Source: Myxococcales bacterium | Lineage (GTDB): Bacteria; Myxococcota_A; Polyangia; Polyangiales; Polyangiaceae | DNA: 64,000 nucleotides | Assembly: GCA_016191785.1 (NCBI GenBank) | Contig: JACPVJ010000088.1 | Coordinates: 1 to 64,000, forward strand | Reading direction: 5' to 3' | Shown here: in pieces, positions 10,913-52,002 of the stretch | How the letters are laid out: each line of letters begins with the position of its first letter | Position numbering within the stretch: the first letter of the stretch is position 1 | The notes under the pieces: generated by a model | Seen by the model: the letters and a program-made list of their open reading frames with translations, nothing else | What the model was told of the DNA's origin: nothing | The model's database searches: none | Program-made: the position numbers and the translations under genes

Positions 10913-10933
10913 GCGGGGCGGACGGGACTCGAA
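10913..10933 (-). repeat. attL: 21-bp copy of the tRNA-Asp 3' end
   Basis: These 21 bases are identical to 51928-51948, which is the T-loop/T-stem/acceptor 3' end of the intact tRNA-Asp on the same (minus) strand, plus the base after the discriminator. The neighbouring bases differ on both sides (t vs a on the left, t vs c on the right), so the match is a bounded direct repeat. This is what integration of an element at a tRNA 3' end leaves behind. No tRNA body is attached here. Confidence 0.85.
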
Positions 10934-18861: not shown

Positions 18862-19811
18862 TTCTCGCCGGCCGTCTCTCGCTCGCGGCTCTCTTGCTCT
18901 CAGCGGCGGCTGCAAGTGCGTGCAACGACGCGCGCGCGAAAAAGGACCATTTGCCTCCCTCCAGTTCTGCGCTCCCACCCCCCGCGGTGCCCGTGCTGGA
19001 ATCGGGCGACGCTGGGCCCGTCGCGGCGGATTCGAGTCAAGGCGAAGCGTACCGAGGAACCGGCTCGATCCAGGCGCGGCAAAAGGCGGAGCTCGGTCCC
19101 AAGAGCACCGGCGTGATCGCGGCGATCACCGTTGCGGAGGGTGACCGTGTCAAGAAGGGAAAGCTCCTGTTTCGCGTGGATTCCCAGCAAGCGAGCCTCG
19201 CCGTGGCGCAGGCCCGTGCGGGGCTAGACTCAGCGAAGGTCTCCGCCTCCATTGCGGAGCTGGACTACAAACGCACCAAGGAGCTCTTCGACCGCGGCTC
19301 GGTGGCACCCGCGACGTACGATCAGGCGAAGTCCCGCTATGACGCAACGAAGTCCGCGGTTCGCCAGGCAGAGGTCGCGGTGTCCCAGGCAAAGAAGCTC
19401 GCGGGCGATACCGCGGTGTACGCGCCGTTCGACGGTGTCGTTTCTGCCAAGCTGAAGAGCGTGGGAGAGATGGCCACGGTGACCCCGCCGAGCATCGTTC
19501 TGGTGGTCCAGGACGTCGACGTGGTCGAGCTCCGCGCGCGCATGCCCGAACGAGCGCTGCGCAGGCTGCAACAGGGCGACTCTATCGAGTTGACGTTTCC
19601 GTCGACCGGAGAGCACCGATCCGTGCGAATAACGCGCATCAACCCAACCATCGACGTGCGCACGCGCACCGTGGAGGTCGTGGCCGAGTTCGCGAACCGG
19701 GACGGTCGTCTGAAACCGGGGATGCTGGCGGAGGTGACGTTCGGTGCGGGGGACTCAGCGTCCGCCGATGGCGGCGCGCCGAAGCCCGCCAGCCAGGCGA
19801 AGAGCCCATGA
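18858..19811 (+). CDS. RND efflux membrane fusion protein (periplasmic adaptor)
   Basis: 317 residues from ATG 18858. Lipoprotein signal LAALLLSAAAASAC, then a short linker and the AcrA/CusB-type order: first lipoyl half (QARQKAELGPKSTGVIAAIT, VAEGDRVKKGKLLFRVDSQQ), alpha-helical hairpin (about 105-165, AKVSASIAELDYKRTKELFD, RGSVAPATYDQAKSRYDATK), second lipoyl half (YAPFDGVVSAKLKSVGEMAT), beta-barrel (VELRARMPERALRRLQQGDS) and a short end domain. It links the inner-membrane pump to TolC. Coupled by ATGA overlaps to the genes on both sides. Confidence 0.95.
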   Translation: MILAGRLSLAALLLSAAAASACNDARAKKDHLPPSSSALPPPAVPVLESGDAGPVAADSSQGEAYRGTGSIQARQKAELGPKSTGVIAAITVAEGDRVKKGKLLFRVDSQQASLAVAQARAGLDSAKVSASIAELDYKRTKELFDRGSVAPATYDQAKSRYDATKSAVRQAEVAVSQAKKLAGDTAVYAPFDGVVSAKLKSVGEMATVTPPSIVLVVQDVDVVELRARMPERALRRLQQGDSIELTFPSTGEHRSVRITRINPTIDVRTRTVEVVAEFANRDGRLKPGMLAEVTFGAGDSASADGGAPKPASQAKSP

Positions 19812-22800: not shown

Positions 22801-22954
22801 CACCCTGGTCGTGGTGCCAGTCGTGTACACATTCTTGGATCGGATTGCGCACAGCGGACCGATGCGCTGGATCGCCGGCAAGCTCCTGACGGACTCCCCG
22901 CAAAGCGCGCGGGGACTCGCGCCGGCTCCAGAACCGGAGGACAACGCTTCATGA
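19808..22954 (+). CDS. RND multidrug efflux transporter, inner-membrane pump (HAE1/AcrB type)
   Basis: 1048 residues, full length for the family. Starts [20 protein letters not shown] (TM1), then [19 protein letters not shown] and the porter domain. TM2-TM6 at about 335-500 carry [20 protein letters not shown] with the paired Asp residues for proton relay. The second half repeats the layout, with [39 protein letters not shown] and [20 protein letters not shown], the Lys of the proton pathway being in [10 protein letters not shown] Gly-rich patch (GGGGGGFRS, about 657-665) is in the second porter region. Exports hydrophobic or amphiphilic compounds by proton antiport with the adjacent adaptor and TolC-like protein. 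Confidence 0.96.
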
Positions 22955-24492
22955 CCCGACGTTCGGAACTGCTGGGACTGGTTTCTCTGACGATGTCGCT
23001 GACCGCGGCCGTCGCCGCGGCGCAACCCACGCAAGAAACGGCGCCTGCCGCCGAAGTTCCGCTCGTCGCGCGCCCGCTGCCCGACGCCAAGGAGTCGCCG
23101 CTGGTTGTGCTCAAACCTGTCGCCGGCGGCCTGACGTCGAGCCAGGTCGCCCGCCGCACCGTCGCGAGCAGCGCGACAGTGCGCGCCCGGCAGGCGGAAG
23201 TGGAGGTCGCTGAGGCAAAGTTTGATCAGACGACGGTCCAGTACTTTCCTCGCGTCGGGCTCAAGGCGACCTACACCCGCCTCTCGCCCGTCTCGAGCGG
23301 GTTCGGCAGCGGCGCCCTCGTCGGCGCGGGGAATCCGGGGCTGCTCACGACTGGTCCGTGTCCTGGCGGCGTCGGAGTGTGTGTCCTCGACTCGGCCGGC
23401 CAACCCGTGGGCGCAGCAGCGTTCGAGATCGAGTCGTTGAAGGACAACTACGCGTTGACCGCCTCCGCGGCGATTCCGCTCAGCGACTACGTCACGAAGC
23501 TCTCGCACGCGGCCGCGGCAGCCCAGGCGACCCGCCGGGCTGCGAGGCTTGCGACGCGCGCCGAGCGCCTCAAGGTTCAGGCCGAAGCGAAGGTGCTCTA
23601 CTACACTTGGGTGCGCTCGCTCGGCCAAGTCGCCGTCGCGCAAAAGTCCCTCGACCGGACTCGTGCACGCCAAACGGACGCCGCAGCCGGCTTTTCTCTC
23701 GGCAGTATTTCGAAAGCCGATCTGATGCGCCTCGAGGCGCTCGTCGCCAACACCGAGTTCGCCGTCAAAGAGGGCGAGACGATGCGCTCGCTCGCAGCTC
23801 GACAGCTTCAGATCCTCATGGGAGACAAGTCGAGCGCGAGCTATCAGGTCGGCGAGGACGTGCTGGTCCCCGCGACCGCAGAGGTCCGCGGTGGACTCGA
23901 TGGCCTGTCGACCGAAGCGCTTTCGCGTCGCCTGGAGCTTGCCGCACTGGATCAGACCGCTCGGTCGCTCCGCTCCGGAGCCAAAGCGGTCGGCGCTGGT
24001 GCGTACCCGCGGCTCGAAGCGTTCGGTGACATCACCTACGCGAACCCGAACCCGCGGTACTTCCCGGCGCGGCGCGAATGGAACTCCACCTGGGCGGTAG
24101 GGCTCTCGGCGAGCTGGACGGTCACCGAAGCTTTCTCGACTTCCGCTGCCGCGCGCGAGCTTTCCGCAAGCGCTCGGAACATCGAAGCGCAGGCTGAGGC
24201 GCTGCGCAACGCGATCCGCCAAGAGGTCGCCGCGGCGTATCTCGACCGGGAGAGAGCGAGGGTCGCGATCCAGACCTCTCAGCGTGCTGCACGGGCGGCA
24301 GAGGAGGCCTACCGCGTCGCGACGGATCTCTATCGGGTTGGGCGGGCCACGACGACGGAGCTCATCGAAGCCGAGCTGGACCTTCTCAACGCGCGACTTG
24401 CCGAGCTGAACGCACACATCGGGCTGCGTATCGCCGAGGTTCGCCTGTCGCATGCGGTCGGGCGGGACGTACCAGCCGGAGCCGGCGGGTGA
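22951..24492 (+). CDS. TolC-family outer-membrane efflux channel
   Basis: 513 residues from ATG 22951, overlapping the pump stop by ATGA. Signal peptide LVSLTMSLTAAVAAAQP. The two tandem TolC units are visible as long coiled helices: ATVRARQAEVEVAEAKFDQT and TTRAARLATRAERLKVQAE-like regions in the first half, and AARELSASARNIEAQAEALR, YRVGRATTTELIEAELDLLN (a signature near the end of TolC proteins) in the second. Beta-barrel segments with alternating aromatic residues lie at VGLKATYTRLSP and YPRLEAFGDITYANPNPRYF. It completes a three-part pump. Confidence 0.93.
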   Translation: MTRRSELLGLVSLTMSLTAAVAAAQPTQETAPAAEVPLVARPLPDAKESPLVVLKPVAGGLTSSQVARRTVASSATVRARQAEVEVAEAKFDQTTVQYFPRVGLKATYTRLSPVSSGFGSGALVGAGNPGLLTTGPCPGGVGVCVLDSAGQPVGAAAFEIESLKDNYALTASAAIPLSDYVTKLSHAAAAAQATRRAARLATRAERLKVQAEAKVLYYTWVRSLGQVAVAQKSLDRTRARQTDAAAGFSLGSISKADLMRLEALVANTEFAVKEGETMRSLAARQLQILMGDKSSASYQVGEDVLVPATAEVRGGLDGLSTEALSRRLELAALDQTARSLRSGAKAVGAGAYPRLEAFGDITYANPNPRYFPARREWNSTWAVGLSASWTVTEAFSTSAAARELSASARNIEAQAEALRNAIRQEVAAAYLDRERARVAIQTSQRAARAAEEAYRVATDLYRVGRATTTELIEAELDLLNARLAELNAHIGLRIAEVRLSHAVGRDVPAGAGG

Positions 24493-25733
24493 CGACCATG
24501 ATGCCGTGGTTGTTCGACCCCGACGATCCATCGGCACGCATCGTACGGTCCCTGGCCCCCGCCGTGCTCGCGCTCGGCTACGCAGCCCTTGGCCTCGCGG
24601 CATGGGCGATCCGCAGTCGGCGTTCGGGGCCGTTCCGCGACGAGGAGATGGATCACCGCGGGACCGGCGGTCTGACCACGGCAGGTTTGCGCCATTTCTT
24701 TGCCTGGCTGATGCGCCCTGTGTGGTCCCTCGCTGTTGTGGCACAGGTTCCGCCCAACGCGATCACGACGCTCTCGCTCGGCCTGTCGGTCGGCGCGGGC
24801 GTCGCGCTCTCGTCGGGTCACTTTGCCCTCGGTGGCTGGCTCTTCGTGACGGCCGGCTCCCTCGACTTCGTGGACGGCCGCGTTGCACGGGTGACGGGGC
24901 GCGTGACGCGCACTGGCGCGGTCTTGGACTCCGTGCTGGACCGTTACGCCGAGGCCGCCGTGCTGGTCGGGCTTGCCTGGTACTATCGGTCGTCCTGGGT
25001 GCTCGTTCCGGCACTGCTCGCCGTCATCGGGTCACAGATGGTGCCCTACGTTCGCGCAAAGGGCGAAGCGCTCGGCGCGAGCATGAAGAGCGTGGGCTTC
25101 ATGCAGCGGCCGGAGCGGATCGCGGTGCTCGGGCTTGGCACGGCGTTCGCTCCGGTCGTCGAAGCCGTGCTCGATCCAATGGGCAGGCACCCCGCGCACC
25201 GGCTGGCCATGGCGGCGCTGGTGTTGATCGCACTGACTTCACACGCCACTGCGCTCCAGCGCCTGCAAGCGCTGGTGCGCTCGCTGAGCGGAACCGTCCT
25301 GCCCGCTCGAACGACTTTCCTGCGCGCGTTGTTCACCAGCGCGCTCGCCACGTCTGTCGACTTCGTGGTCGCGAATCTCGCGGATCGCGGCGACGCACCC
25401 GCCACTCTGGCAACGGTCGCGGGCTGCGCGGCCGGTGGCCTGGTGGCCTGGATGCTGTGCCGCGTCTGGACATTCGCCGCCACTGGCGCCACGAGCATGC
25501 CACCGCTCTGGCGCTTCGCGTTCGTGTGGGCGAGCTCCACCGCGCTGAACACCGGAGGCGTGTGGGTCGGATTGTGCGTCCCAGGGATGAGCTTCCTCGG
25601 CAGCTGGTTGTTGACCCGTGCGGTCGTCTACACGACTTGGAACTACCCGTTGATGTGGGATTACATCCAAGGTGAACCAACACAGTGTTTGCCTGGCAGC
25701 GGGCCCGAGTCGATGAGGTCGACCTGCCCATGA
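24489..25733 (+). CDS. CDP-alcohol phosphatidyltransferase fused to GtrA-like membrane domain
   Basis: 414 residues; start overlaps the TolC stop, so it belongs to the efflux operon. After one N-terminal helix, residues about 70-265 are a CDP-alcohol phosphotransferase: the catalytic signature D-x2-DG-x2-AR-x8-G-x3-D-x3-D is intact as DFVDGRVARVTGRVTRTGAV followed by LDSVLDRY, and VPYVRAKGEALG is the expected follow-up helix. Residues about 275-400 are four membrane helices of GtrA type (FLRALFTSALATSVDFVVAN, WMLCRVWTFA, WVGLCVPGMSFLGSWLLTRA, YTTWNYPLMWDY). GtrA domains are thought to flip polyprenyl-linked sugars. The fusion suggests making and flipping of a phospho-head-group lipid; the substrate cannot be read from sequence. 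Confidence 0.88.
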   Translation: MTTMMPWLFDPDDPSARIVRSLAPAVLALGYAALGLAAWAIRSRRSGPFRDEEMDHRGTGGLTTAGLRHFFAWLMRPVWSLAVVAQVPPNAITTLSLGLSVGAGVALSSGHFALGGWLFVTAGSLDFVDGRVARVTGRVTRTGAVLDSVLDRYAEAAVLVGLAWYYRSSWVLVPALLAVIGSQMVPYVRAKGEALGASMKSVGFMQRPERIAVLGLGTAFAPVVEAVLDPMGRHPAHRLAMAALVLIALTSHATALQRLQALVRSLSGTVLPARTTFLRALFTSALATSVDFVVANLADRGDAPATLATVAGCAAGGLVAWMLCRVWTFAATGATSMPPLWRFAFVWASSTALNTGGVWVGLCVPGMSFLGSWLLTRAVVYTTWNYPLMWDYIQGEPTQCLPGSGPESMRSTCP

Positions 25734-34676: not shown

Positions 34677-35612
34677 ATGACATCGGCGCTCCGACACATG
34701 CGCTCGCTGTGGGGCCGGTGGTGGATGCTGCCGGGTGGAATACCGCTCGCCTACCTGGCCTTCGTCGTGGCCAAGGGCGACACGCGGGTCGAGCATGTCG
34801 TCATGGCGGGCATCGCCTGCGGGTTCGCCTACGCGAGCCCACGCTCGAAACGGTTCTTCGCCGACGTGTGGCCGTACCTCGCGGTCGGCATCGGCTACGA
34901 CGCGGTTCGCTACCCGCGAAAGCTGCTGGTGGGAGCCGACCGCGTGATGGGCTGCGGGCTCAGAAATGCCGAGCTCGCGCTGTTTCCGGCCGGTCCGGGC
35001 CAGACCTGGCAGGACTTCGCGCAGGCGCACGCCCACCCCGTCCTCGATCTGATCTTCGCGGTGCCCTACGCGATCTTCGCCTACCTTGCGCTGATCTACG
35101 CGGCCTACCTCTACTTTGTCGATCGCCCACGAATGCGCCACTACCTCTGGGCCTTCGCCATCGGGAACTACATCTCGTTTGCGATGTGGCTGGTGGTCCC
35201 AACAGCCCCACCCTGGTACCTGCGCGCCCACGGCTGCACCATCGACATGGCGTCCCTGCCGAGCCCGGCCGGGCTGGCGCGCGTCGACGCTCTGTTCGGC
35301 ATCTCGTACTTCCACGACTTCTACTCGCGCGCCTCCAGCGTGTTCGGTGCCATGCCCAGCATGCACTGCGCCTACCCCGTCCTCGGCTTGCTCACCGCCT
35401 GGAAGGCGGCGACCTGGAAGACGCGGCCGATCCACCTGCTCTACACGGCGGTGATGTTCATGGCCGCGGTCTACCTCGACCATCACTGGATCCTCGACGC
35501 GATCGCGGGCTGGCTCGTCGCGCTCGTCTCCGTCGTGCTCGCCAAGCGCCTGCTCGCTCGCTTCGACCCCGGGTCGCCGCCGAGTGAGCCGGGGACAGCT
35601 CAGGGCGGCTGA
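34677..35612 (+). CDS. PAP2-superfamily phosphotransferase, inositol-phosphorylceramide-synthase-like
   Basis: 311 residues, polytopic (six or so helices). The lipid-phosphotransferase motifs are LVVPTAPPWYLRAHGC, FGAMPSMHCAYPVLGLLTAW (C2-like with catalytic His) and AVYLDHHWILDAIAGWLVAL (C3-like with His and Asp). This PTAPPW / PSMHxAYP / DHHxxxDxxxG trio is that of the Aur1/IPC-synthase-like PAP2_3 group, which transfers phospho-head-groups between lipids. Follows the CDP-alcohol phosphotransferase by 13 bases; converges on the MMPL exporter with 13 bases of overlap. Confidence 0.88.
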   Translation: MTSALRHMRSLWGRWWMLPGGIPLAYLAFVVAKGDTRVEHVVMAGIACGFAYASPRSKRFFADVWPYLAVGIGYDAVRYPRKLLVGADRVMGCGLRNAELALFPAGPGQTWQDFAQAHAHPVLDLIFAVPYAIFAYLALIYAAYLYFVDRPRMRHYLWAFAIGNYISFAMWLVVPTAPPWYLRAHGCTIDMASLPSPAGLARVDALFGISYFHDFYSRASSVFGAMPSMHCAYPVLGLLTAWKAATWKTRPIHLLYTAVMFMAAVYLDHHWILDAIAGWLVALVSVVLAKRLLARFDPGSPPSEPGTAQGG

Positions 35613-38113
35613 GCGCGGCGCCGCTTCGGCAATAGCAGGAGCAGCGCCGGCAGGATCAGCACGCCCGCCACCAGGCACACGATCTCGCCCAGCACCGCCA
35701 GGAGGCCGAACAGGAACAGTGCGCGGTTCTCGGCCAAAAGCAACGACGAGTAGCCGATGACCGTCGTCGCCGAGCACAGCGCCACCGCCCCACCGGTGGC
35801 GCGGATCGCCGGGCGCACGTCGTTCTCACCGTCGCTGATGTAGCGACTCATCACATTCACGGCGTAGTCGACGCCGATGCCGAAGGTGATGGGGAAGGCG
35901 ATGAAGTTGGCGAAGTTGACCTTGACCCCGGTCACCATGGCGAACGCGCCGAGCCAGGCCACGCCCACGGCCAGCGAGCCGATCACCAAGAGCGTGGTCC
36001 GGCTGAAACGAAACAGCCCGATCACCACGAGCAGCACGCCAATGAACGCGGCGACGCTGGCAAAGACGCCGTCCTTTCTCACCGACTCCAGGATGTCGGC
36101 CGAGAGCGGCAACGAGCCCGCAACCCTGGCGGGCCTCCCACCGGGCGGCGTGCCCTCCGCCGCGGCGCTGCGCAGCGCCGCCACGAACGCGGCGAGCGGT
36201 GGTCCCTGCCAGAGCTCCCGCGAAGGCCGAGGGAAGACGACCACGGTCTTGCCGACGCTGCCATCTCGCTCCCTGAGCCCCACGAGCAGCCTCGGAGGCA
36301 GGTCGTCCGGACCCACCGGAGCCGTCACGTCGTGTGCGAGCAGGCGTTCCGTGAGCTCGCGCCGGTCCTCGGGGATCTGCGCTCGCAGGCGCGGGGTCAG
36401 CGCCTGCTTGATCTTCCGGGCCTCCTCCAGCTTCTTCTCCTGACCCGCGGGGAGCACGTCGTCGGACGAGAAGACCCGGGTCACCATGTCGGCCAGCGGC
36501 GGGCCGCGCCGGAGCGTCTCCAGCCGCTCGCGAATCTGCCGCGCCTGCCCCGGCGTGTCCGCGAGGATGACCGTGGGCGTCAGATAGCTGCCGAGCACGG
36601 CGTCCATCTTTCTTCCCCAGTGCCCTTCCCCGCTGACCCAGGTGTCGGCGCGACGGAGCTTGGAGAAGTCGTACTCGAGGTTCGCGTCGCTGACCGTGCG
36701 GAGCTTCAGCACGGAGGCCACGGTCAGAGCGAAGCCGAACACGAGAATGCCGCGCGGGTAGCGCGCGACCAGATCTGCGACCTTGCCCATCACTACGCCA
36801 GTGGTCTTGGCTGGGCTCCTTCCCGAGCCCGCGTCGCGGTCGAGCCAGGCGGTCAGCGGCGGGATCAGCAGGAACGACACGGCCCACGACAGGACCATGC
36901 CGATGAGCCCGATGTAGCCGAACTGTCGGAACCCGCGGAACTCGGTCAATGCGAGCGAGCCGTAGGCCGCGCTGGCGGCCAGCGATGCCGACAGCGTGCC
37001 CGGACGCGCCCCCCATACCGCGATCACCAGCGAGTCCTCGAGCCTCCCGCCCGCGCGCCGTTCCTCGGTGTAGCGCGCGAGCAGGATGATCCCGAAGTTG
37101 ATGCCGTTGCCGACGATGATCGAGCCCAGGAACGCGGTGTTGGAGTTGAGCTCGGTGACGCGGAACGGGGGCAGCGAGGCCAGCGCGAACGTGTACACCG
37201 TCGCCAGGAGCAGCGGCGGGATCAGCGCCAGCATGCTCTTATACCAGCGGAAGTACACGAGCAGCGCGCCACCCACCAAGAGCAGCACCAGGACGGACGA
37301 GAGCGACAGGTCTTCCTTGAGGGCCTGAGTTTCCTCGACACCGATGGCGATGTCCCCGGCGTACCCGATGCTCATTCCGGGCGCGTATTTCTCCGGCCCG
37401 CCCAGCGCGGCGACGTCGGCCTTCACACGCCCGAGCAGCTCGGCCCCTTTGCCCTGGCCCGTCGAGAACAGCGCCACGTCCACGATCAGCAGCGTGTGAG
37501 CGAGCGCTTTGCTGGAGAATCGACCCGTGGGCACGCGCTCGCCGCCACCGGCCTGGCTGTCGTACTTCCGCTCGATGTCGCTGAAGTCGAGCGACGGTGG
37601 GGCTTCGTCTTCGTCGAGCAGCTGTTCGGCAGCCTTCGCCACCTCCCAGTCGCGCCGAGCCTCGATGCGCTCGCGAGCGGTGACCAGGTCGGCGTGCTTC
37701 AGGTAGATGGGCGCGTGTTTCTCCAGGAACTCGCGCTCGGCGTCGTTGCCCAGGCGCACGGCGCGCACCAGCTCGGGCGGGTAGGCGCGGATCCTGGCCG
37801 CGAGGTGGTCGAGGAAGTGCTCGCCGGCCGGCAGGTTCTCCACCTTGTCGGCGTTCACCACGACCCCGAGGTGCTGGAGCCCCGGCAGCCGCGCCCGCAT
37901 CTCTTCGATGGCGGCGACGCTCGGCGAGCTGCGCGGCAGGAGGTGCTCCAGCTCACTGCGCAGGTTGGCGTAGAGGGACGCCGTGCGCCACGTCGCCGGC
38001 ACGGCGAGGAGCAGCGCCACGAACCAGATGAGGCGCGCGTGTTTCAGCGTGAAGGCCACGAAGCGGCGCGTCGGCTCCGGGACCTTCTCGAAATCGCTAC
38101 TCGGCTCCCTCAA
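35600..38113 (-). CDS. MMPL/RND-superfamily lipid exporter (HpnN-like)
   Basis: 837 residues from TTG 38113, chosen because it overlaps the stop of the GtrA gene as TTGA; the open frame continues upstream over the GtrA gene and is not real there. TM1 is HARLIWFVALLLAVPATW, a periplasmic loop of about 240 residues follows, then SSVLVLLLVGGALLVYFRWY, VGNGINFGIILLARYTEERR, and a second half with VAAFIGVLLVVIGLFRFSRT and ITFGIGVDYAVNVMSRYISD. The paired GxxxD/Y motifs are typical of MMPL permeases. At this size it resembles hopanoid transporters (HpnN). It probably moves the lipid made by the convergent genes. Confidence 0.9.
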   Translation of the reverse strand: MREPSSDFEKVPEPTRRFVAFTLKHARLIWFVALLLAVPATWRTASLYANLRSELEHLLPRSSPSVAAIEEMRARLPGLQHLGVVVNADKVENLPAGEHFLDHLAARIRAYPPELVRAVRLGNDAEREFLEKHAPIYLKHADLVTARERIEARRDWEVAKAAEQLLDEDEAPPSLDFSDIERKYDSQAGGGERVPTGRFSSKALAHTLLIVDVALFSTGQGKGAELLGRVKADVAALGGPEKYAPGMSIGYAGDIAIGVEETQALKEDLSLSSVLVLLLVGGALLVYFRWYKSMLALIPPLLLATVYTFALASLPPFRVTELNSNTAFLGSIIVGNGINFGIILLARYTEERRAGGRLEDSLVIAVWGARPGTLSASLAASAAYGSLALTEFRGFRQFGYIGLIGMVLSWAVSFLLIPPLTAWLDRDAGSGRSPAKTTGVVMGKVADLVARYPRGILVFGFALTVASVLKLRTVSDANLEYDFSKLRRADTWVSGEGHWGRKMDAVLGSYLTPTVILADTPGQARQIRERLETLRRGPPLADMVTRVFSSDDVLPAGQEKKLEEARKIKQALTPRLRAQIPEDRRELTERLLAHDVTAPVGPDDLPPRLLVGLRERDGSVGKTVVVFPRPSRELWQGPPLAAFVAALRSAAAEGTPPGGRPARVAGSLPLSADILESVRKDGVFASVAAFIGVLLVVIGLFRFSRTTLLVIGSLAVGVAWLGAFAMVTGVKVNFANFIAFPITFGIGVDYAVNVMSRYISDGENDVRPAIRATGGAVALCSATTVIGYSSLLLAENRALFLFGLLAVLGEIVCLVAGVLILPALLLLLPKRRRAQPP

Positions 38114-38523
38114 CGGGACTCCTGCCTCGCGCGATAGACCCAGCACCGTTGCATGGGGAAGTTCCAGCCCAGACTCACCGCGACGGAAACGATCACGCGC
38201 GCCAACACGTAGTGCAGACCGAGCACGTTGAACAGCAGGTGCTCTCCGAGCGCGTTCCATCCGGCGCTGGCGCCCGAGACGAAGGCGTATCGGGCGGCTT
38301 GACCCATGACCGGGACATCATCAGCGCGAAACACCCAGCGTCGATTGAGCGCGAAGTTGATCACTGCTCCGACGGTCGCACCGAGCGGAGCGGCGAGCAC
38401 GGGCGAGAGGCGAAGCAGCTCGACCAGCGCGACCATCGCGCCGAAATCCGCAGCCGTCGCCACCAGCGAAGCGAACTGGTGCCGACCAAGCAGCCGGAAG
38501 GTCGACGCAGGCGGACCGCGCAT
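38110..38523 (-). CDS. GtrA-family membrane protein
   Basis: 137 residues, four helices: QFASLVATAADFGAMVALVE, APLGATVGAVINFALNRRWV, ARYAFVSGASAGWNALGEHL and LARVIVSVAVSLGWNFPMQR, ending CWVYRA. NFxLNRxWVF and WNFxxQRxWVY are the GtrA signatures. GtrA proteins are proposed flippases for undecaprenyl-linked sugars. Coupled to the MMPL gene by TTGA overlap; together with the same domain fused at 24489 this is the second GtrA in the island. Confidence 0.9.
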   Translation of the reverse strand: MRGPPASTFRLLGRHQFASLVATAADFGAMVALVELLRLSPVLAAPLGATVGAVINFALNRRWVFRADDVPVMGQAARYAFVSGASAGWNALGEHLLFNVLGLHYVLARVIVSVAVSLGWNFPMQRCWVYRARQESR

Positions 38524-39099: not shown

Positions 39100-39321
39100 A
39101 TGGGCAAGAACATCTGGGTATCGCCGCGGGCCGGCGGGTGGACAGTCAAGAAGGAGGGCGCGCGCCGCGCATCCGCGGTCGTGCCCAAGCGAAAGGACGC
39201 GATCGACATCGCGCGGCGCGCTGCTGCTGATGAACGATCTGAGCTGGTGATCCAGAGCAGGCGAGGATCGATTCGGCACAAGGACAGCCACGGGGCCGAC
39301 GGGTACCCGCCGCGAGGATGA
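39100..39321 (+). CDS. DUF2188-family small protein
   Basis: 73 residues from ATG 39100, with AGGAG seven bases upstream. Pattern: GKNIWVSPRAGGWTVKKEGA, RRASAVVPKRKDAIDIARRA, AADERSELVIQSRRGSIRHK, DSHGADGYPPRG. The order 'V.p...gW.V..eg..ra......k..Ai..A...a.....e..i....G.I......g.DP' is DUF2188. Function unknown. The stop overlaps the start of the TIR gene (ATGA), so the two products are made together. Confidence 0.88.
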   Translation: MGKNIWVSPRAGGWTVKKEGARRASAVVPKRKDAIDIARRAAADERSELVIQSRRGSIRHKDSHGADGYPPRG

Positions 39322-40769
39322 TCATGCGCACGGCGAATCCCGAGCATGCTGACGGCTCCGCGCCCGAGAACCACGGGGCTGACGGCGACGGCGGCGGCCG
39401 TCCAGTCAGCGCGACGCCGCGGGAGAATCTCTTCATCAGCTACGCAACCGCGGATGTTTCGTTCGTGCGTTGGCTCGCGTTGAAGCTGTCCGCCTGCGGG
39501 TACCGTGTCTGGTGGGATCGCGAACAGCTCCACGGTGGAGCATCGTTTCCGACCGACATTGACGTGGCGCTCAAGACGCGCACGTTCCGAATGCTCGCCG
39601 TCCTCTCGCACTACTCGTCGCGCAAGCCAAGCCCCGAGGCCGAGCGTAGCCTCGCGCTGGCGATCGGGAAGGAGCGGGACGAGCCGTTTCTCGTTCCGCT
39701 GAACCTTGAGTTGAAGCCGCCCGAGCTGCCGTGGAACCTCACGAACCTAACGTTTGTGCCGTTCATGGACAGCTGGACCGTCGGACTGCGCCAGCTGCTC
39801 GACGATCTGCGGTCGGCCTGCGCCCCGTGCTACCCGAGTGAGTCGGCGGAGCTCGTGCGCGCGAACCTGTCGCGGGCAACCTTCGTCACGGATGCGCCGG
39901 AAGACGTATGGCTGAACCTCTTCCACATCAACGACCTTCCGCTCGGGATCAGCCGCTACGAATGGGACCAGGACGTGGCGGATGACGCGCTGGCCGGCTG
40001 GGTGCACCTTCGCGAGGGGCCGCGCGCCTGCTGGGCGTTCGAGCCTCCCCCGGGAAGCGCAGGCACACGCCGACCAGAGCGGGACCAGTACGCCCTTGGA
40101 CCCAGTCGCATCGGCGACGTCAACCTGAACCACGTGACGTCGTCGCTCGTTCGTCAGTACGTCGAGGTTCGCTGTCGGACGCGCGGCCTTGCCGAACTCC
40201 CGCGCACTCGAAGTACGAGCGCGTTCTACTTCCCGGACACGCTTCCAGTGGCGGCTCGCCTACCGTTCAGGCTGCCGACCGGTCGCGCGACCTGGCTGCA
40301 ACCGGTCGGGACACGCCGTGTGTGGCACCGCAAGCAGCCCGAGCAGGTCCGCTACCACCTCGCGTTCCACTTCAAGGTCGAGCTTCGTCGGTTCGGAGCC
40401 CCTGCGCTTCAAATTCGACCAACCGTTCACTTCACGACGGCGACGGGGCGCCCCGTCGACAGCGCTCGCAACGTGCGACGTGCGAAGGCGGTCCGGCGCG
40501 CGTGGTTCAACGACAAGTGGCTCGCGCGCGTGGCGGCGATCGGGTCGTACCTCGCCGACGACGTCGACGGGTGGAAGCTCCATCCGGCTCTGGCAACCAC
40601 GATCTCTCGGGTGCCCCTCGCAATGACGAGCTCACCGAGCCTCGACGAGACGGCGCGCGCGGCTCCGCCGGCCTTCCAGTCGGTGTTCATGTCGTCGATG
40701 TACACGGCCTGCGCGTTGCCACTGCCCCAGGTGACCGCCTTGTTGAAGTCCGAGCTGACGGCGAGATAG
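39318..40769 (+). CDS. TIR-domain protein with C-terminal APAZ-reminiscent region, probably 3'-truncated
   Basis: 483 residues. Residues about 35-150 are a TIR domain: NLFISYATADVSFVRWLALK, CGYRVWWDREQL, RMLAVLSHYSSRKPSPEAER, FLVPLNLELK; the Glu in SPEAE is where TIR NADases keep the catalytic Glu. The remaining part (about 170-440) contains TSAFYFPDTLPVAARLPFRL, YHLAFHFKVELRRFGAPALQ and IRPTVHFTTATGRP, a run that recalls the APAZ-like region of TIR-APAZ proteins; this is from memory and weak. The last ~40 codons are the mirror of a lipoprotein gene on the other strand, so the native 3' end has been replaced. Role: candidate NAD-consuming phage defence effector. Confidence 0.8.
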   Translation: MIMRTANPEHADGSAPENHGADGDGGGRPVSATPRENLFISYATADVSFVRWLALKLSACGYRVWWDREQLHGGASFPTDIDVALKTRTFRMLAVLSHYSSRKPSPEAERSLALAIGKERDEPFLVPLNLELKPPELPWNLTNLTFVPFMDSWTVGLRQLLDDLRSACAPCYPSESAELVRANLSRATFVTDAPEDVWLNLFHINDLPLGISRYEWDQDVADDALAGWVHLREGPRACWAFEPPPGSAGTRRPERDQYALGPSRIGDVNLNHVTSSLVRQYVEVRCRTRGLAELPRTRSTSAFYFPDTLPVAARLPFRLPTGRATWLQPVGTRRVWHRKQPEQVRYHLAFHFKVELRRFGAPALQIRPTVHFTTATGRPVDSARNVRRAKAVRRAWFNDKWLARVAAIGSYLADDVDGWKLHPALATTISRVPLAMTSSPSLDETARAAPPAFQSVFMSSMYTACALPLPQVTALLKSELTAR

Positions 40770-42128: not shown

Positions 42129-42392
42129 TCAGATTTCGATACCGTCGGTCAATATGCGCTCGTGCCAGGTACGTCCCGCGCCTAGGAGGCTTCGCATCGC
42201 TCGGATCGCTGTCGCCAGATCGTCGGAGGCTTCAACGTCCACCGCGTCGACCCAAGCCTCGGCGTTTTCGATCGCCCGTCTCGCGCCCTCCAGGTCGCCC
42301 AGTTCGATCAGAGATCGAGCGCCCTCCAGGTTCCCCCATGCCGTAGCCGCCGCGAGGGCGGAGAATCGCTCAGTGTCCATCGTGTCCGGCAT
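42129..42392 (-). CDS. Small helical protein, last gene of the replication operon
   Basis: 87 residues from ATG 42392, or 83 from ATG 42380. Helical, acidic: ERFSALAAATAWGNLEGARS, LIELGDLEGARRAIENAEAW, VDAVDVEASDDLATAIRAMR. The two 'L.EGAR..I' repeats suggest a short TPR-like hairpin. It overlaps the preceding gene by 23 bases. Unknown; probably an accessory of the element's replication operon. Confidence 0.6.
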   Translation of the reverse strand: MPDTMDTERFSALAAATAWGNLEGARSLIELGDLEGARRAIENAEAWVDAVDVEASDDLATAIRAMRSLLGAGRTWHERILTDGIEI

Positions 42393-43251
42393 CTTGTTCT
42401 TCCGTGATGATGGCTTCGGTGGATTGTGCCGCGTCCTTGCGGCCGTCGGGTCCGTCGTCGCCACTCGTCGAGTCGCAGCCCGTCCGCAGCGAAGGCAAGT
42501 CTGGGACACGCTCCCAGTTCCCCGCACGGATGTGGATTCCGAGCGCATCAGTTTCCACCGACGTCGCACGGCCTGACCGCGGATCCCGTTCGATCACCGG
42601 GCCGAGCAAGGACAGCGCTCGCCCGAGGATGCCGATCGAACGGAACCTTGAGTGATCGTACGATGCGGCGAGCTCCTCGAGAATCTCCCAGAAGACTTTC
42701 TCGGCGTCACGTCGGAGCGGTCTTTGGCACTCGGTCAGCAGGCGTCCGGCCAAGGTCGACTTCTCGCGGATTGGGTTCTGGCGAATCGAGTTGTACGTCT
42801 CGATGTCGATCTCCCGAACGCCATCCGGAGAAAGTTCTAGGTACCTGTACAGCTCCTTGACATCTCTCGTCCCCTTGGGTCGCGACGGATCGTCGATGTG
42901 CGTCCAGAACTTGCAGCTGCTCGGCGTGCGCGGCAGCGCGAGCACTTTGATGCGGAACGTGGCATCCCCGGGGCCCCTCCGCTCGTACGTTGCGACCGAA
43001 TCAACTTCACGGAACGGGCGACCGTCGATCGCGCACGTCCGCCGCACGAGCTCGTTTTTCCCGTTTGTGGCCGAAACATGCCCGAGCACGAGAACGCGCC
43101 CCAGAAACCTATGCACGCGGACCACGGCGAAAGGCCAGGTGCTGAAAACATCCGCGTAGGTGTCGAAGGTGTCGTGTCGGACATCGCTGCACGAACCGAC
43201 CTCCCCGACCGGCACCGGGGTGTCTTGACGGCGTTGCATTGGCGGCATCAC
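42370..43251 (-). CDS. Unknown protein of the replication operon
   Basis: 293 residues from ATG 43251, overlapping the previous stop by ATGA. N-terminal half is beta-rich: AVVRVHRFLGRVLVLGHVSA, KNELVRRTCAIDGRPFREVD, ATFRIKVLALPRTPSSCKFW, THIDDPS. It resembles a nucleotide-handling or OB-like domain but I cannot name it. The second half is helical (ELYRYLELSPDGVREIDIET, CQRPLRRDAEKVFWEILEEL) with an acidic low-complexity tail (DSTSGDDGPDGRKD). The basic-then-acidic layout with an acidic tail would fit a single-strand-binding-like role; inference only. Confidence 0.65.
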   Translation of the reverse strand: MMPPMQRRQDTPVPVGEVGSCSDVRHDTFDTYADVFSTWPFAVVRVHRFLGRVLVLGHVSATNGKNELVRRTCAIDGRPFREVDSVATYERRGPGDATFRIKVLALPRTPSSCKFWTHIDDPSRPKGTRDVKELYRYLELSPDGVREIDIETYNSIRQNPIREKSTLAGRLLTECQRPLRRDAEKVFWEILEELAASYDHSRFRSIGILGRALSLLGPVIERDPRSGRATSVETDALGIHIRAGNWERVPDLPSLRTGCDSTSGDDGPDGRKDAAQSTEAIITEEQDAGHDGH

Positions 43252-43805
43252 GGCCTCCGTCTCCGGCGTCGACGCTGGGCGCGTTCATACCCGCGCCGCA
43301 AGGCAATGAGCGAATCGGCGCCGAGCGGCTGGTCGTAGAGCCGGGTCGGAAGGGAAGCGGAAAGCGCAAGGTGGCGCGCGAGCGACGTCGTTGCCCACGT
43401 GCTCTCAACCAGTGCTCGGGGCACCGTGGCTTCGTCGAGTGAAGAGACTACTTGGACAGCCACGTCATCGCCGCTGTCTTGTAGGACGCGCGCAAGGACT
43501 GCGCCGAATCGCTCCATGCACTGACGTCGCTCGTACCGAGCGTTCGAGGCGGCTTCGGCGCGTCCGTCGACGAGGGGTGTCATGAAGGCCATGAATTCCG
43601 CGAAGTCGCGGGGCAGCCCCTGAGCAAGCAGCTCCTCGAGGTGACGATCGGGCGTAAACGCCTCTCGATCCTCGGCGGGCACAACGCCGAGTTCGGACCA
43701 GTACAAGAAGAAGTCGTCGCCCGGGTGACCTGGTGCTTGAGCCTTGTTCCGGCGTCTTGGCTTGCGCAATAGGCGCCAGCACACCTCGAAGTCGTCATCT
43801 GGCAT
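43248..43805 (-). CDS. Unknown protein of the replication operon
   Basis: 185 residues from ATG 43805, seven bases after the polymerase-fusion stop. Short basic start (LLRKPRRRNKAQAPGH), then DDFFLYWSELGVVPAEDREA, FTPDRHLEELLAQGLPRDFA, EFMAFMTPLVDGRAEAASNA, RYERRQCMERFGAVLARVLQ, and an Arg-only C terminus (RRRRRRP). Not recognised. Basic ends suggest nucleic-acid contact. Coupled to the genes on both sides. Confidence 0.65.
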   Translation of the reverse strand: MPDDDFEVCWRLLRKPRRRNKAQAPGHPGDDFFLYWSELGVVPAEDREAFTPDRHLEELLAQGLPRDFAEFMAFMTPLVDGRAEAASNARYERRQCMERFGAVLARVLQDSGDDVAVQVVSSLDEATVPRALVESTWATTSLARHLALSASLPTRLYDQPLGADSLIALRRGYERAQRRRRRRRP

Positions 43806-43812
43806 TGGCTCC

Positions 43813-46800
43813 TCACTTTCTGTAGCGTCGGGCTACATATCCCTCGACCGCGATCGGCAAGCCGTCCGCCCAGTCCGGCGGGGTCTTCACCAGCTCCGCG
43901 ATCGCCGTGAGGTCTGTTTCACGGTCGACCTCGCACACGATCTCGTCGTGGACGTGGAGAACGACTTCATGGCCCGCTCGCTCGAGACGCACCAGCGCGT
44001 CGGCCAACAGGTCCCTGCAGACTGCCTGGACGACGTTCTCGACGAGTTTCCCCCCGAAAGTCCAGACTTCGGTGCCCCTGTGCAGATGCTTGAGCGCAGC
44101 GCGGCCGTCGCGCTCGTGAATCCTGGCGCCTCTATAGACCATGGAGCGACCGCTCGGGAGCGCACAGCTGAGGACGCGGGCTTCCGCCCTCCAGGTGCAC
44201 TTGCCCGTGGATGTTGGCAGCCCGGTCAAAACGGCTCGGATTGCGGCTTGCTCCGATGTCCTCCACAGCCCACCTCGGCGCGCGACGTGGCCCTCACGGA
44301 TTGCTCCGGTGCGCGTGCCGGCGACCAATGGATGCGAGTCTCGCCACGCGTCGACCGACTGCGCGGGCGTGACGTCGAGAGCTGACCAATCGATCCCATA
44401 GCTTTCCGCGTGCGCGCGAAATCGGTCCACTCCCATCCCGTATCCGCAACCCAGTACGCACGCCTTTCCAAGCTGCCTCTGGTTTCTCGAGACGGTGTCC
44501 GGGTCGATTGCGAAAAGCACGGCGGCCATCGAGACGTACGGGTCGCCCTCTCGACGGTACAGTTCGAGCCCGTCATCGTCGCCAGCCAACCAGAGCAACG
44601 CGCGAGCCTCGATGGACGCGTAGTCGACGACCGCGAGGAGGCGACCTGCTCCGGCGCGGATGCAGGGGCGGATGAGTGTACCGAGGACATCCTCCATGCC
44701 GACGCCCGCCGCGTCGGCGATCCGGCGTGCCCCCGCGAGGTCGCCGCGCAGGACGAGCTCAATCGCGGCATCAACGTCCATCGAGACGCCGCGCGGGAGA
44801 TTTTGAGGGTTAAATCGACTCCCACCCCACCGACCAGTGTGTGCCGAATGGTAGACGAGCGCGTCACGAATTCTGCCGTCGGGCGATACGGTTTGTAGAG
44901 CGGCAGCGGCCTTCTTTGCAGCGATCCCGCTGGTTGCCAGGCGCGCGCGAATCGCGGCGCGAATGGGCTCCGGGACGGTGGCGTCCGCCACCAACGGCTC
45001 AAGTCGCTCGCCACGAGCATCCCGCAAGTCGAGGCCTTCGCCCCTAAGCCAAGCCAAGAACTGCTTGGGCGAGCGCAGCACGCTGGCAGGCACGGGTGCT
45101 GCTGCCTGCAGGTCGCGCACCTCCTGATTGTCGAGTCGAACGATCGCCTGTGCGAGAGCGATATCGAGCTCGAACCCGCGGGCGTTGATTGCAGCGTCGA
45201 CGGTTCGGACGTCGATCTCGGATGCGGCTACATTTTGAAGCGGGCCGGCCCAACCGGCCGCAAGAACCTCGACGTCGCCGCGGCAATACCGAAGAGCGCT
45301 GGCGCGCTGGTCAGGGTCCACTGGGGTAAGCGTGCCGGTCCGTCGATCTGGTCGGCTGAGGGCGAGCGTCATCTTGCGCGCCGCAGTGTCCTTCGGCACG
45401 CCCACAGCCTGCCCCAGCGCCTCGAGACTGCCGCCCAGGCCTACGAGGCGAGCCAGGTGCATCGTGTCGATCCACATCTTCGGCTCCGGCCAGCCGAGAC
45501 CGCGCCAAACATGCCGGTCAAAGCCGTGGGCGTTGTGCGCTGCGACGTCCGCGCCTGCTTCGATCGCTGCGAAGAGATTGGCTGGCGGGGGGGTACCGGG
45601 TGTCCAAGCCACCCATGTCGCGTCGGGCAGAAGGGCCGCCGCGCAGACAACCTCTGTCGAGGGGTCCGCAGCGTAGAGGCGGCCACCCAAGGCGCGCAGG
45701 TCGGCCATCGAGCGCGTCTCGAAGTCCACGAACACCGGTGTCTGAGCCACGGCGCACGGCGAAGCGCCGGCGTCGGCCGTTCGATCACTACCTCCCGCAG
45801 CTCGAAGCGCGCGAAGCGGTCTATTGTTTGCGTTCACGTTTTCCTTGGCAGCGCGCGCCGTGCCGCCGTCGAAATCCATGAGTTCGTAGTCAGGATCATC
45901 GTGCGCTTCGTGCGTATCGCTGTCTGACGGCGGTGCTGGAGCCGACTCCGTCAGCGCATTGTCGAGCGCTTCGCTGGGCTCTGGACCCGCGGGTGGCAGG
46001 CTTGCGCGAGGCAGGCCGCGACCCTTCGCAACTCCAACTTCGACGAACCGCGCGAGCCATCTCCCCGAGCGACGTCGGACCAGGAGCCGCAAGCTCGGCT
46101 TGTCGAGGCGGAGGACAGGCGCTAGGTCGAGGCGCTCCAACTCGGCCGTCTCCGCTCGCGTTGTACGGTGGTCCGCCTCGAAGTCGACCAGCTCCCCTAG
46201 CTCCAGCGCGGCCGGCGATCCGGGGCTCGCATCGAGCCAGCCAGCCCAGCGCGTGCCGCTGGTCAGGTCGCTCTCCGGCGCCGACCGGAATCGCTCGTAC
46301 AGCGCACGGACCGCCGGCTCCACACCCGGTCCGGAGAGATCGTCCAGGTCGAGGTCGACGAGGGGTACCGCGCCAAATTCCGTGCGGCACAGATCCCGCC
46401 AGCTGATGTTGCGTCCCTGCGACCAGACGAGCCACCACACCCACCGGGTGATCACGTCGAGATGCGGGCGTAGCTCATTGCGACTGCGGGCGGCTGAGAT
46501 GTCGCCCCACCGCTCCCAGTTTGTTGCTCGGTCCACGAGGCGGAAGCCCACGCACCGCCGGGCGATCTCGGGCGAGCGTGTTATCGATCGTGGAAGCGTG
46601 GATCCCACCAACGCGACCGGGGACGTGACCCGCACCGTCCTTTCGTTCGCGTACTTCGCCGCGAATGTGAGCGAGGCGTTGAGCGACAAGATCGCCTCAA
46701 GGCGACGGTACACGTCTGGGACGCGACCGACCTCGTCGAGGATGAGGACTCCCGCTCCGCTCTCGATGGCCAGGCCGGTGCCGCGGCGGGTTCCCTCGGG

Positions 46801-48312
46801 CTCGCCGAGCGCGACGTCCGCGGCGCGGCGTCCGACGCAGCCTCCTGCCAGCCGAGCCGAAGCAGTTTTCGCGGTGCCGCTCCCACCGGTGACGGCGAGG
46901 ATTGGAGGCAGTCCGCTCGCCCGCTGGGCGTAGAAGTCAGCCGCGATCAGCGCGCACAAATATCCCCTGCTCAAACCTGGCAACAGCTCTCCGAGACACC
47001 CGAACGCGAGGTCGACCTCCTGCTGTGTCGGGGCGGACGTTCCAAGATCCACCGGTGGGGGATCACCGCGACGCCTCGGGCGACGCGCGCGGATCGACCC
47101 TTCCGCGGGCTCGACGTAGGGGCCAACGACGGTGTTCGCATCCACCGGATCGATGGGAACGAATCCGCGGAGGGGACCCCCGTTCAGTGCGGCGTCGACC
47201 ATCGTGCGCGAACGTGCCCAGGGCAGCTCCGCAAGCGTGCGATCGCCCGTCACTCGACGGACCTGAAGCGTCACCGCATCCACCCAGGCGCCCGAGACAG
47301 ACCGGGCGACGTCGACGATCGTGTTGGCAGCGCGATCTACCAGCGTGCGCCACTTCGCGGCCTCCTTCTCGTCCGGGGACGCCAACCGGTCCGCATTCGC
47401 GACGCGAAGGAAGAGCCGCCATGCGTGCTCGTAGAGCTTTTCCGGTGCACCCGGTCGCATGTCCCGGAGGACGTGGCGCTGATGAGGCAGGTGCACCAGC
47501 GAGCGGGCGGCCTCATACGGAGATGCACGATCGTCATCGACGAGCCGCCCCACGAGCGCGTCCCAGGAGCGGCGCTGGCCGCATCGGAAGCACTTGGCCC
47601 CGCGATCGTCGACCACGAATGGTGGATTGCCCGACGAGCCGTCTGCACCGCACCAGATGCACCGATGCCGCCCGTAGGAGAGCCCGTGCTCGCTCATCCA
47701 GTCGGCGACCTCGTCCTGTGTAGCCGCGCTGACAGAATTGTTTCCGGGGACGACGGTGGAAGCCGACGGCTCGAAGCGCAACACGGGACCGCACGTCTGG
47801 TCGCCCCGGGCACCCGATGGGTGTCGAGTATCCGTCTTCACCTCGAGCCGCCACGACGCGAGTCTGCCGTAGGGGGCGAGGAGCGCCCACGCTGCCGCCA
47901 GCTCCACCGCTGTAGCATCCGGCGTCGCCACGAAGATTACGCGCAGGCCCGCGCCGTGGGTTCGCCATGCGAACAGGGGGCGCGGTACGGAACTCGGGAA
48001 GAAGCGCTGCAGGTCCCCATCGACCAGCGGCGGGGCATTCTCCGGGCGATCAAAATCTAGGGCGACGACCGCCTCCAAGCCGCTCCACCGCATGATGGGC
48101 TCCGAGAGGTTCGAGATGTCCAGCTCCACCGCGCGCGTAAGCGCGGCGTCCGGCGTCTCCCCGGTGACGCGAGTCCCCTCGTCGTCGCGCTGGTACAGGC
48201 CGCGCACCGTGAGTTCGAAGCCGACCGATGACGGAGTGGCCGTCACCGCATGCGCGACCTCGGCGGCCTCGCGCAGGGCGGTTGGCCGTGTAATAGTTCG
48301 GCTCGAGGGCAT
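43813..48312 (-). CDS. Replication megaprotein: primase-like + zinc finger + AAA+ helicase + 3'-5' exonuclease + family A DNA polymerase
   Basis: 1499 residues in one uninterrupted frame from ATG 48312. Domains in order: (1) about 60-200, archaeo-eukaryotic-primase-like, with VVALDFDRPE (D86, D88) and FAWRTHGAGLRVIFVA; (2) zinc knuckles C218/C221 and C241/C244; (3) about 430-640, AAA+/superfamily-3-like ATPase, Walker A GGSGTAKT (476-483), Walker B GVLILDE (521-527); (4) about 858-1020, DnaQ-like exonuclease, VDFETRS (D863, E865), AHNAHGFD, YCRGD (D1013); (5) about 1035-1499, Pol I fold, motif A VVDYASIEAR (D1230), motif B RQLGKACVLGCGYG (R1279, K1283), motif C HVHDE (D1456). All catalytic residues are present. 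The linker at 770-855 is Ala/Pro/Asp-rich. Probably replicates the excised element alone. Calls for domains 3-5 are firm; domain 1 is by layout. Confidence 0.9.
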   Translation of the reverse strand: MPSSRTITRPTALREAAEVAHAVTATPSSVGFELTVRGLYQRDDEGTRVTGETPDAALTRAVELDISNLSEPIMRWSGLEAVVALDFDRPENAPPLVDGDLQRFFPSSVPRPLFAWRTHGAGLRVIFVATPDATAVELAAAWALLAPYGRLASWRLEVKTDTRHPSGARGDQTCGPVLRFEPSASTVVPGNNSVSAATQDEVADWMSEHGLSYGRHRCIWCGADGSSGNPPFVVDDRGAKCFRCGQRRSWDALVGRLVDDDRASPYEAARSLVHLPHQRHVLRDMRPGAPEKLYEHAWRLFLRVANADRLASPDEKEAAKWRTLVDRAANTIVDVARSVSGAWVDAVTLQVRRVTGDRTLAELPWARSRTMVDAALNGGPLRGFVPIDPVDANTVVGPYVEPAEGSIRARRPRRRGDPPPVDLGTSAPTQQEVDLAFGCLGELLPGLSRGYLCALIAADFYAQRASGLPPILAVTGGSGTAKTASARLAGGCVGRRAADVALGEPEGTRRGTGLAIESGAGVLILDEVGRVPDVYRRLEAILSLNASLTFAAKYANERTVRVTSPVALVGSTLPRSITRSPEIARRCVGFRLVDRATNWERWGDISAARSRNELRPHLDVITRWVWWLVWSQGRNISWRDLCRTEFGAVPLVDLDLDDLSGPGVEPAVRALYERFRSAPESDLTSGTRWAGWLDASPGSPAALELGELVDFEADHRTTRAETAELERLDLAPVLRLDKPSLRLLVRRRSGRWLARFVEVGVAKGRGLPRASLPPAGPEPSEALDNALTESAPAPPSDSDTHEAHDDPDYELMDFDGGTARAAKENVNANNRPLRALRAAGGSDRTADAGASPCAVAQTPVFVDFETRSMADLRALGGRLYAADPSTEVVCAAALLPDATWVAWTPGTPPPANLFAAIEAGADVAAHNAHGFDRHVWRGLGWPEPKMWIDTMHLARLVGLGGSLEALGQAVGVPKDTAARKMTLALSRPDRRTGTLTPVDPDQRASALRYCRGDVEVLAAGWAGPLQNVAASEIDVRTVDAAINARGFELDIALAQAIVRLDNQEVRDLQAAAPVPASVLRSPKQFLAWLRGEGLDLRDARGERLEPLVADATVPEPIRAAIRARLATSGIAAKKAAAALQTVSPDGRIRDALVYHSAHTGRWGGSRFNPQNLPRGVSMDVDAAIELVLRGDLAGARRIADAAGVGMEDVLGTLIRPCIRAGAGRLLAVVDYASIEARALLWLAGDDDGLELYRREGDPYVSMAAVLFAIDPDTVSRNQRQLGKACVLGCGYGMGVDRFRAHAESYGIDWSALDVTPAQSVDAWRDSHPLVAGTRTGAIREGHVARRGGLWRTSEQAAIRAVLTGLPTSTGKCTWRAEARVLSCALPSGRSMVYRGARIHERDGRAALKHLHRGTEVWTFGGKLVENVVQAVCRDLLADALVRLERAGHEVVLHVHDEIVCEVDRETDLTAIAELVKTPPDWADGLPIAVEGYVARRYRK

Positions 48313-50178: not shown

Positions 50179-50499
50179 ATGGTGCTCGACGAAGGTGCAC
50201 TCAGAGCGCTCGTGCGAGAGGCACTCCGCGACGTACTGCGTGAGGAGCTTCCGCGGCTTCTGCCGGGAAGCACAGCTCGACCGACCTACTTGTCGCCGAA
50301 ACAGGCGGCCGATGTCGCGGCAACGAGCGTATCGACGATTCGCTCTTGGATCCGGGGCGGCCGGTTGCGGCCCTATCGAGCGGGTCGCCTCGTCCGTGTA
50401 CGCCGTGATGAGGTGGAGGCCCTCCTCGCCGGAGGCAAAGTAGGTGGTGACTCCCGTGCCACCCTCGCCGCGACGATAATCTCGAAGGGACGGCGCTGA
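50179..50499 (+). CDS. Excisionase-like MerR/HTH_17 DNA-binding protein
   Basis: 106 residues from ATG 50179. An N-terminal amphipathic helix (ALRALVREALRDVLREELPR) is followed by a winged helix: YLSPKQAADVAATSVSTIRS, WIRGGRLRPYRAGRLVRVRR, DEVEALLAG. This is the helix-turn-helix_17/excisionase pattern (A..l.vs..tvr.wi..G.l......g...ri...dl). Next to the integrase in the same direction, it is the likely recombination-directionality factor. Confidence 0.85.
   Translation: MVLDEGALRALVREALRDVLREELPRLLPGSTARPTYLSPKQAADVAATSVSTIRSWIRGGRLRPYRAGRLVRVRRDEVEALLAGGKVGGDSRATLAATIISKGRR

Positions 50500-50596: not shown

Positions 50597-52002
<1,406 letters not shown>

Follow-up and report, generated by a model that had tools for sequence, protein, structure and literature searches.

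A stretch of 64,000 nt from contig JACPVJ010000088.1 of a Myxococcales bacterium (assembly GCA_016191785.1), hereafter the window, carries a gene whose 1499-aa product combines an archaeo-eukaryotic primase (AEP)-like domain, a zinc finger, a P-loop ATPase (probably AAA+), a DnaQ-type exonuclease and a family A DNA polymerase (PolA). With a probability of about two in three, this protein serves as dedicated replicase to a 41-kb element that has integrated at a tRNA-Asp gene. At the sequence level, this reading is backed by an intact frame, the PolA and exonuclease catalytic motifs together with Walker motifs, repeats of tRNA-Asp, an empty site in a genome of the same genus, and the fusion's conservation in other genomes.

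The fused gene and its relatives

Nt 43813-48312 formed a single stop-free open reading frame (ORF) on the minus strand, with the ATG at 48312 and the stop at 43813; the original prediction had left the strand unstated. On the plus strand, frame 1 was interrupted by stops across this interval. The helicase, DnaQ exonuclease and family A polymerase motifs, which the original prediction had assigned to one frame, were all located in this ORF. The polymerase domain (residues 1035-1499, nt 43816-45210, minus strand) possessed the motifs DYASIEAR (1230-1237), RQLGK...YG (1279-1292) and HVHDEI (1453-1458), and gave the sole Pfam match of the protein, PF00476 (DNA_pol_A; E=5.7e-16, 58.9 bits versus a curated cut-off of 34.3); score and catalytic motifs together identify it, by sequence, as a family A DNA polymerase. 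The PDB matches fell in this part, the best being Taq and Bacillus Pol I. Residues 858-1020 (nt 45253-45741, minus strand) are predicted to be a DnaQ-type 3′-5′ exonuclease with three exo motifs, VDFETRS (862-868), AHNAHGFD (925-932) and YCRGD (1009-1013), and intact acidic residues. Phrog_17 spanned both domains (residues 858-1499, E=1.8e-87). The Pfam exonuclease model PF01612 had no match in the window protein at E≤1 and matched the relative L101 (see below) with E=2.6e-8. These values, and two other genomes with homologues co-linear over the full length, show that the motifs exceed chance.

Relatives were sought by a pattern-based scan of a species-representative collection, in 377 genomes of the phylum, and in 59 near genomes including the host's own. 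The pattern-based scan with the N-terminal half yielded one relative, L098, and the 377 genomes yielded two matches, the own genome and G292. Among the 59 near genomes 46 passed, with high scores only in the own genome, G056 and G035, and with the N-terminal half, apart from the own genome, only in G056; nearly all remaining matches covered 80-105 polymerase residues, mostly in ORFs of 900-1000 aa that are presumably ordinary Pol I. A search of 317 genomes gave 21 passing E 0.001, of which only the own genome and G056 had long matches, the 19 others being short segments in or near the ATPase that were left out of the count of relatives; a search of 71 genomes gave two, long in G292 and short in G236.

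The same domain order was found elsewhere in one frame. L098 (G590:C13:110722-115293, in a genome listed as Myxococcota) was a 1524-aa frame co-linear with the window protein, with 43-45% identity in the N-terminal and 46% in the C-terminal half, and L101, on a contig of G292, was a co-linear frame of 1580 aa (26-27% and 30-32%, respectively). G056 possessed a two-gene version, in which the TGA stop of an 839-aa ORF overlapped the GTG start of the polymerase frame. This split lies at the variable linker between the two halves (residues 779-857, nt 45742-45978, minus strand), which was delimited by alignment and had a predicted local distance difference test score (pLDDT) below 50 for residues 779-850. 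The remainder of the G056 polymerase is probably on another contig, C478; no common end sequence was found between the two. In G035, a polymerase with 48% identity to that of the window (L102:4729-8057) stood alone, with a TubC_N-like N-terminus and an adjoining D5_N/DUF5906 helicase gene. From these sequences, helicase modules seem to have been exchanged around related polymerases.

The N-terminal half

Residues 1-850 had no Pfam match, and the best PHROG row (E 0.69) covered residues 464-486. A PDB profile search returned 22 rows at E≤5; most of these were P-loop ATPases aligned around Walker A, with Midasin as the best (E 0.0078). Residues 430-640 (nt 46393-47025, minus strand) are probably a P-loop ATPase of the AAA+ class, weakly DUF927-like, with Walker A GGSGTAKT at 476-483 (nt 46864-46887) and Walker B LILDEV at 523-528 (nt 46729-46746). 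DUF927 (PF06048) had no match in the window protein or in its own genome; L098 scored E=0.0026 and 17.9 bits, below the cut-off of 22.6, and hhalign to DUF927-containing fusions (see below) aligned Walker A with Walker A at E=0.0077 but with 5% probability. On these values an assignment to DUF927 was rejected. Toprim and DnaB models of Pfam had no match at E≤1 in the window protein, though diverged domains could escape them. Of the AAA+ helicase proposed earlier, a P-loop ATPase (probably AAA+) with intact Walker motifs is supported, and the helicase identity is tentative.

The AEP-like domain (residues 28-186, nt 47755-48231, minus strand) contained the DxD motif as DFD (residues 86-88, nt 48049-48057), with motifs II and III assigned by eye to THGAGLR and LEV, respectively, and was followed by a putative four-Cys zinc finger (residues 218-244, nt 47581-47661, minus strand; CIWC 218-221, CFRC 241-244). 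Fold matches of the model (VIA, 50 rows listed) included 24 that aligned at least 107 residues, 23 of them AEP enzymes and one not (2atz); this cut was picked after the list was seen, some proteins account for several rows, and for complexes the identity of the chain was taken from entry titles. The AEP enzymes were RepB′, Prim-PolC, CAPP, the LigD polymerase domain, an archaeal polymerase of non-homologous end joining, PriS, Pri1, S-2L PrimPol, African swine fever virus PrimPol, NrS-1 and herpes helicase-primase. D-x-D, THGxGxR and TRHPxG were invariant in the window protein and the relatives L103 and L101, the three members that keep the DxD/E of AEP motif I. The motif III position, judged by eye, was Glu in the window and L103, Asp in L101 and Arg in L098. 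L098 lacked motif I (D86 to Val, D88 to Glu) and had Val for the motif II Arg; such joint loss of DxD, motif II Arg and motif III acid is as expected of one active site. All four zinc-finger Cys were present in the window, L098 and L101, and one was missing in L103.

Several points limit the reading as a primase. The His of AEP motif II is replaced by Arg, the identity as a primase is supported but not proven, resting on a weak fold match and motifs without significant sequence similarity to primases, and the identity of the ATPase as a helicase is weaker still. DR0530-like AEPs are printed with Arg or Lys in motif II, so His is not universal (PMC5862659). Agreement with that family consists of the D-x-D/Arg/Glu pattern alone, by eye; hhalign to the annotated DR0530-like primases of phages AH2 and BcepNazgul, reached via PMC3483164, gave no significant match (E 0.24; 3 and 2 rows). 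The original prediction of a DxD primase-like domain with a four-Cys zinc finger within residues 1-260 thus holds as to the motifs and as to an AEP-like fold in the model, and falls short in the weakness of the fold match and in sequence similarity.

The strongest rival, which we regard as unlikely, is a fusion of helicase and polymerase in which the AEP-like N-terminus serves solely for binding to DNA or an origin, without primer synthesis, priming being left to the host primase or to PolA itself. It accords with the replaced His, with L098, where the DxD set is gone yet the Walker and polymerase motifs are kept, and with the fold matches, in which RepB′ ranked first and polyomavirus origin-binding domains ranked 22 and 38. 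A-family polymerases can, moreover, prime with a partner protein, as described for CcPol-MP (PMC7581432, PMC10061031). Mere DNA binding is disfavoured by the DxD and the motif III acid kept in the window, L103 and L101 and by the zinc finger that follows.

The integrated element

The region 10913-51948 is, as judged from its sequence features, a tRNA-integrated element: it is bounded by repeats of a tRNA 3′ end, encodes an integrase and is missing from the corresponding site in kin. The 21-bp repeats, identical in both copies, lie at nt 10913-10933 and at nt 51928-51948, the latter being the 3′ end of the target tRNA-Asp (gtc; nt 51928-52002, minus strand). In 100 shuffles the repeat had a mean of 0.01 matches and no shuffle had two; no third copy was found with up to 3 mismatches. 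A 456-aa tyrosine integrase (nt 50597-51967, plus strand; PF00589 3.9e-7, phrog_1 1.7e-36) overlaps the tRNA and the right repeat with its 3′ end and is preceded by a 106-aa excisionase-like HTH_17 protein (nt 50179-50499, plus strand; PF12728 1.3e-11, phrog_66 excisionase 2.7e-10). In G002, of the same genus, homologues of genes from both flanks surround tRNA-Asp, with about 2 kb from the tRNA to the aligned part of the left-hand gene; the site is therefore empty there. In G001, also of the same genus, the tRNA and right-hand genes were found, and the 13.7 kb retrieved contained no homologue from the left-hand flank; this region (L180, G001:C40, 1-13746) may hold a different element.

L098 lies in a second element, between 46-bp repeats of a tRNA-Pro 3′ end placed 22.5 kb apart. 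Its integrase gene overlaps the left repeat copy, and its other genes include Rad52-like, DUF932, C5-methylase and repressor-like ones. No replication origin was recognised in either element, the repeats near the fused gene being few and chance-like.

A further rival, which we consider distinctly improbable although it is compatible with a role as replicase, is a tailed-prophage remnant, in which a phage replication gene became integrated at tRNA-Asp and the virion genes were lost or are unrecognised. The integrase and excisionase do resemble phage families, the excisionase-like protein has a weak PHROG row for terminase small subunit (E 0.095), and the PolA half has relatives in 1570 phage records and in 80 viral contigs that were kept. 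Against this, no virion gene was found at E≤0.01 among the 25 element ORFs scanned with PHROGs or the 10 scanned in the second element, and tblastn of the N-terminal halves against 50,697 phage records gave no match (at 1e-5 and at 1; for the half of L101 at 0.01). Viral contig scans with N-terminal peptides or an alignment, or with the L138 fusion described below, likewise revealed no relative, using a filter that needs short conserved peptides. These phage-record and contig results gave no sequence support for a phage origin of the N-terminal half. Plasmid records gave 14 matches, every one starting at residue 850 or later. The expectation that viruses usually keep the polymerase separate was borne out: none of the 80 viral relatives had an N-terminal extension of more than 77 aa, with 11 not fully judged (5 cut at the 5′ end and 10 with an ORF starting inside the aligned region, four being in both sets).

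A tree of 66 rows, 62 of them viral, was built after dropping 18 of the 80 viral rows (too short, incomplete, or identical over the first 300 aa), together with the gene that is split in G056. The window and L098 were sisters (99/84), with L102 outside (100/99) and L101 far away. The fused state required at least two changes, and among 200 bootstrap trees one change sufficed in 0%. The polymerase half may alternatively have been replaced, and the tree serves as a guide only, with four viral rows on very long branches and with the window, L098 and L102 deviating in amino-acid composition.

That two genes were joined by a false frame, a doubt raised by a draft genome of 216 contigs, is extremely improbable, with the same fusion in two other genomes and no stop over 1499 codons. 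The rival readings overlap, and their odds do not sum to one.

Downstream of the fused gene on the same strand, a 185-aa ORF, possibly in an operon with it, follows after 7 nt (nt 43248-43805) and is overlapped by 4 nt by a 293-aa ORF (nt 42370-43251); neither had a Pfam or PHROG match at E≤0.01. Likely cargo at nt 19808-25733 and 35603-38260 comprises an RND efflux pump, an outer membrane efflux protein, a CDP-alcohol transferase/GtrA protein and an MMPL transporter. A TIR-domain protein (nt 39318-40769; PF13676, 6e-19), possibly a defence gene, also lies inside the element, and a second integrase-like ORF of 293 aa near its left end (nt 15338-16219; phrog_1 1.1e-42) is perhaps from another insertion.

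One-chain replicases and the proposed function

Single-chain replicases as such have precedents, as PREX, the Thermocrinis virus polyprotein, GP55 and fusions of DUF3854, DUF927 and PolA illustrate. These have other parts, and the doubt that the same fusion is long known applies to the principle of one chain; a published protein uniting AEP, helicase, exonuclease and PolA was not recognised in the literature searched, which left out most subscription papers. The primase of PREX is of the TOPRIM type and its helicase of the T7/Twinkle type, whereas the window protein suggests an AEP-like domain together with a P-loop ATPase resembling DUF927. DUF3854 is likewise TOPRIM-like.

The DUF927 search revealed ORFs of 1573-1680 aa (L138:4763-9673, L139:8174-12892, L162:5078-10117 and L163:8422-13413), each of which carries DUF3854, DUF927 and DNA_pol_A, in four genomes of the host's family, G031, G015, G393 and G364, with DUF927 over the cut-off in all four (1.4e-9 to 1.5e-5). 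They resemble the window protein in having a primase-like domain, a helicase-like ATPase and PolA in one chain, and differ in DUF3854 versus AEP and in a polymerase half only distantly related to that of the window. The Pfam exonuclease model was weak or absent in them, and exo motif I appeared degenerate by eye. At a separate locus of G015, which the search of near genomes had matched in the polymerase, a 1306-aa ORF (L140:9354-13271) with an ATPase-like stretch (by eye) and PolA is perhaps a third type of fusion.

PREX of apicomplexan plastids has primase, helicase, 3′-5′ exonuclease and polymerase in one chain in the same order, but is nuclear-encoded and organelle-targeted (PMC8113025). 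The PolA polyprotein of Thermocrinis Octopus Spring virus 3173, of 1,606 aa, is also one protein of a mobile element; its N-terminal region is primase/helicase-like and bears Walker motifs, 3′-5′ exonuclease and PolA follow, and its relatives have the helicase as a separate ORF, as in G056 (PMC7689252). Its ATPase is assigned to DUF927, of which the window protein gives only a hint, and it belongs to a virus with capsid genes (PMC7689252), whereas the window holds a tRNA-integrated element in which no virion genes were recognised among the ORFs scanned. GP55, the four-in-one replicase of lactococcal phage 1706, similarly joins helicase, AEP primase, polymerase and 3′-5′ exonuclease; it is a phage gene with a family B polymerase, its domains are listed as helicase, AEP and PolB, and its activities have been demonstrated (PMC12205980). 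The CcPol-MP primase and Cch2 helicase of staphylococcal cassette chromosome elements likewise replicate an integrated element by means of an A-family polymerase and a helicase, but as separate proteins, with a partial exonuclease in CcPol and no AEP (PMC7581432, PMC10061031). The AEP-DUF927 fusions of the PrimQH and all3500 families also join an AEP to a putative helicase in integrated elements; the source names no polymerase or exonuclease fusion for them, and their motif II has His or Gln versus Arg here (PMC5862659). Membership in TV-Pol, defined by the lack of nuclease-domain fusion (PMC2579912), was rejected on the exonuclease motifs of the window chain.

As the dedicated replicase of the element, the protein would act as follows. 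The integrase and excisionase would cut the element out, giving a circular intermediate; the P-loop domain, probably AAA+, would form a ring and open the DNA; the AEP-like domain and zinc finger would lay primers on the exposed strand; and the tethered PolA domain would extend these, with proofreading by the exonuclease. Reintegration of the copied circle could follow. Ring assembly, unwinding, priming, extension, the circle and autonomous replication are all inferred. A wider proposal, possible though on the unlikely side, is that certain virion-less elements of this phylum form a group replicated de novo and with proofreading by one self-priming AEP primase-helicase-exonuclease-PolA protein, without host primase, helicase or polymerase, that the fusion arose or came apart on more than one occasion, and that in one branch with decayed priming and proofreading the polymerase half has to be primed otherwise.

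PREX and a hot-spring virus had already provided examples of primase-helicase-PolA fusions; these findings suggest that such fusions also recur in the chromosomes of bacteria, and that their primase domains are of seemingly unrelated kinds. If active, the window protein would match the four-in-one GP55 with a family A in place of a family B polymerase, residing on an integrated element rather than in a phage, and the natural fused, split and partly decayed versions would allow testing of the advantage gained by linking primase, helicase and polymerase covalently.
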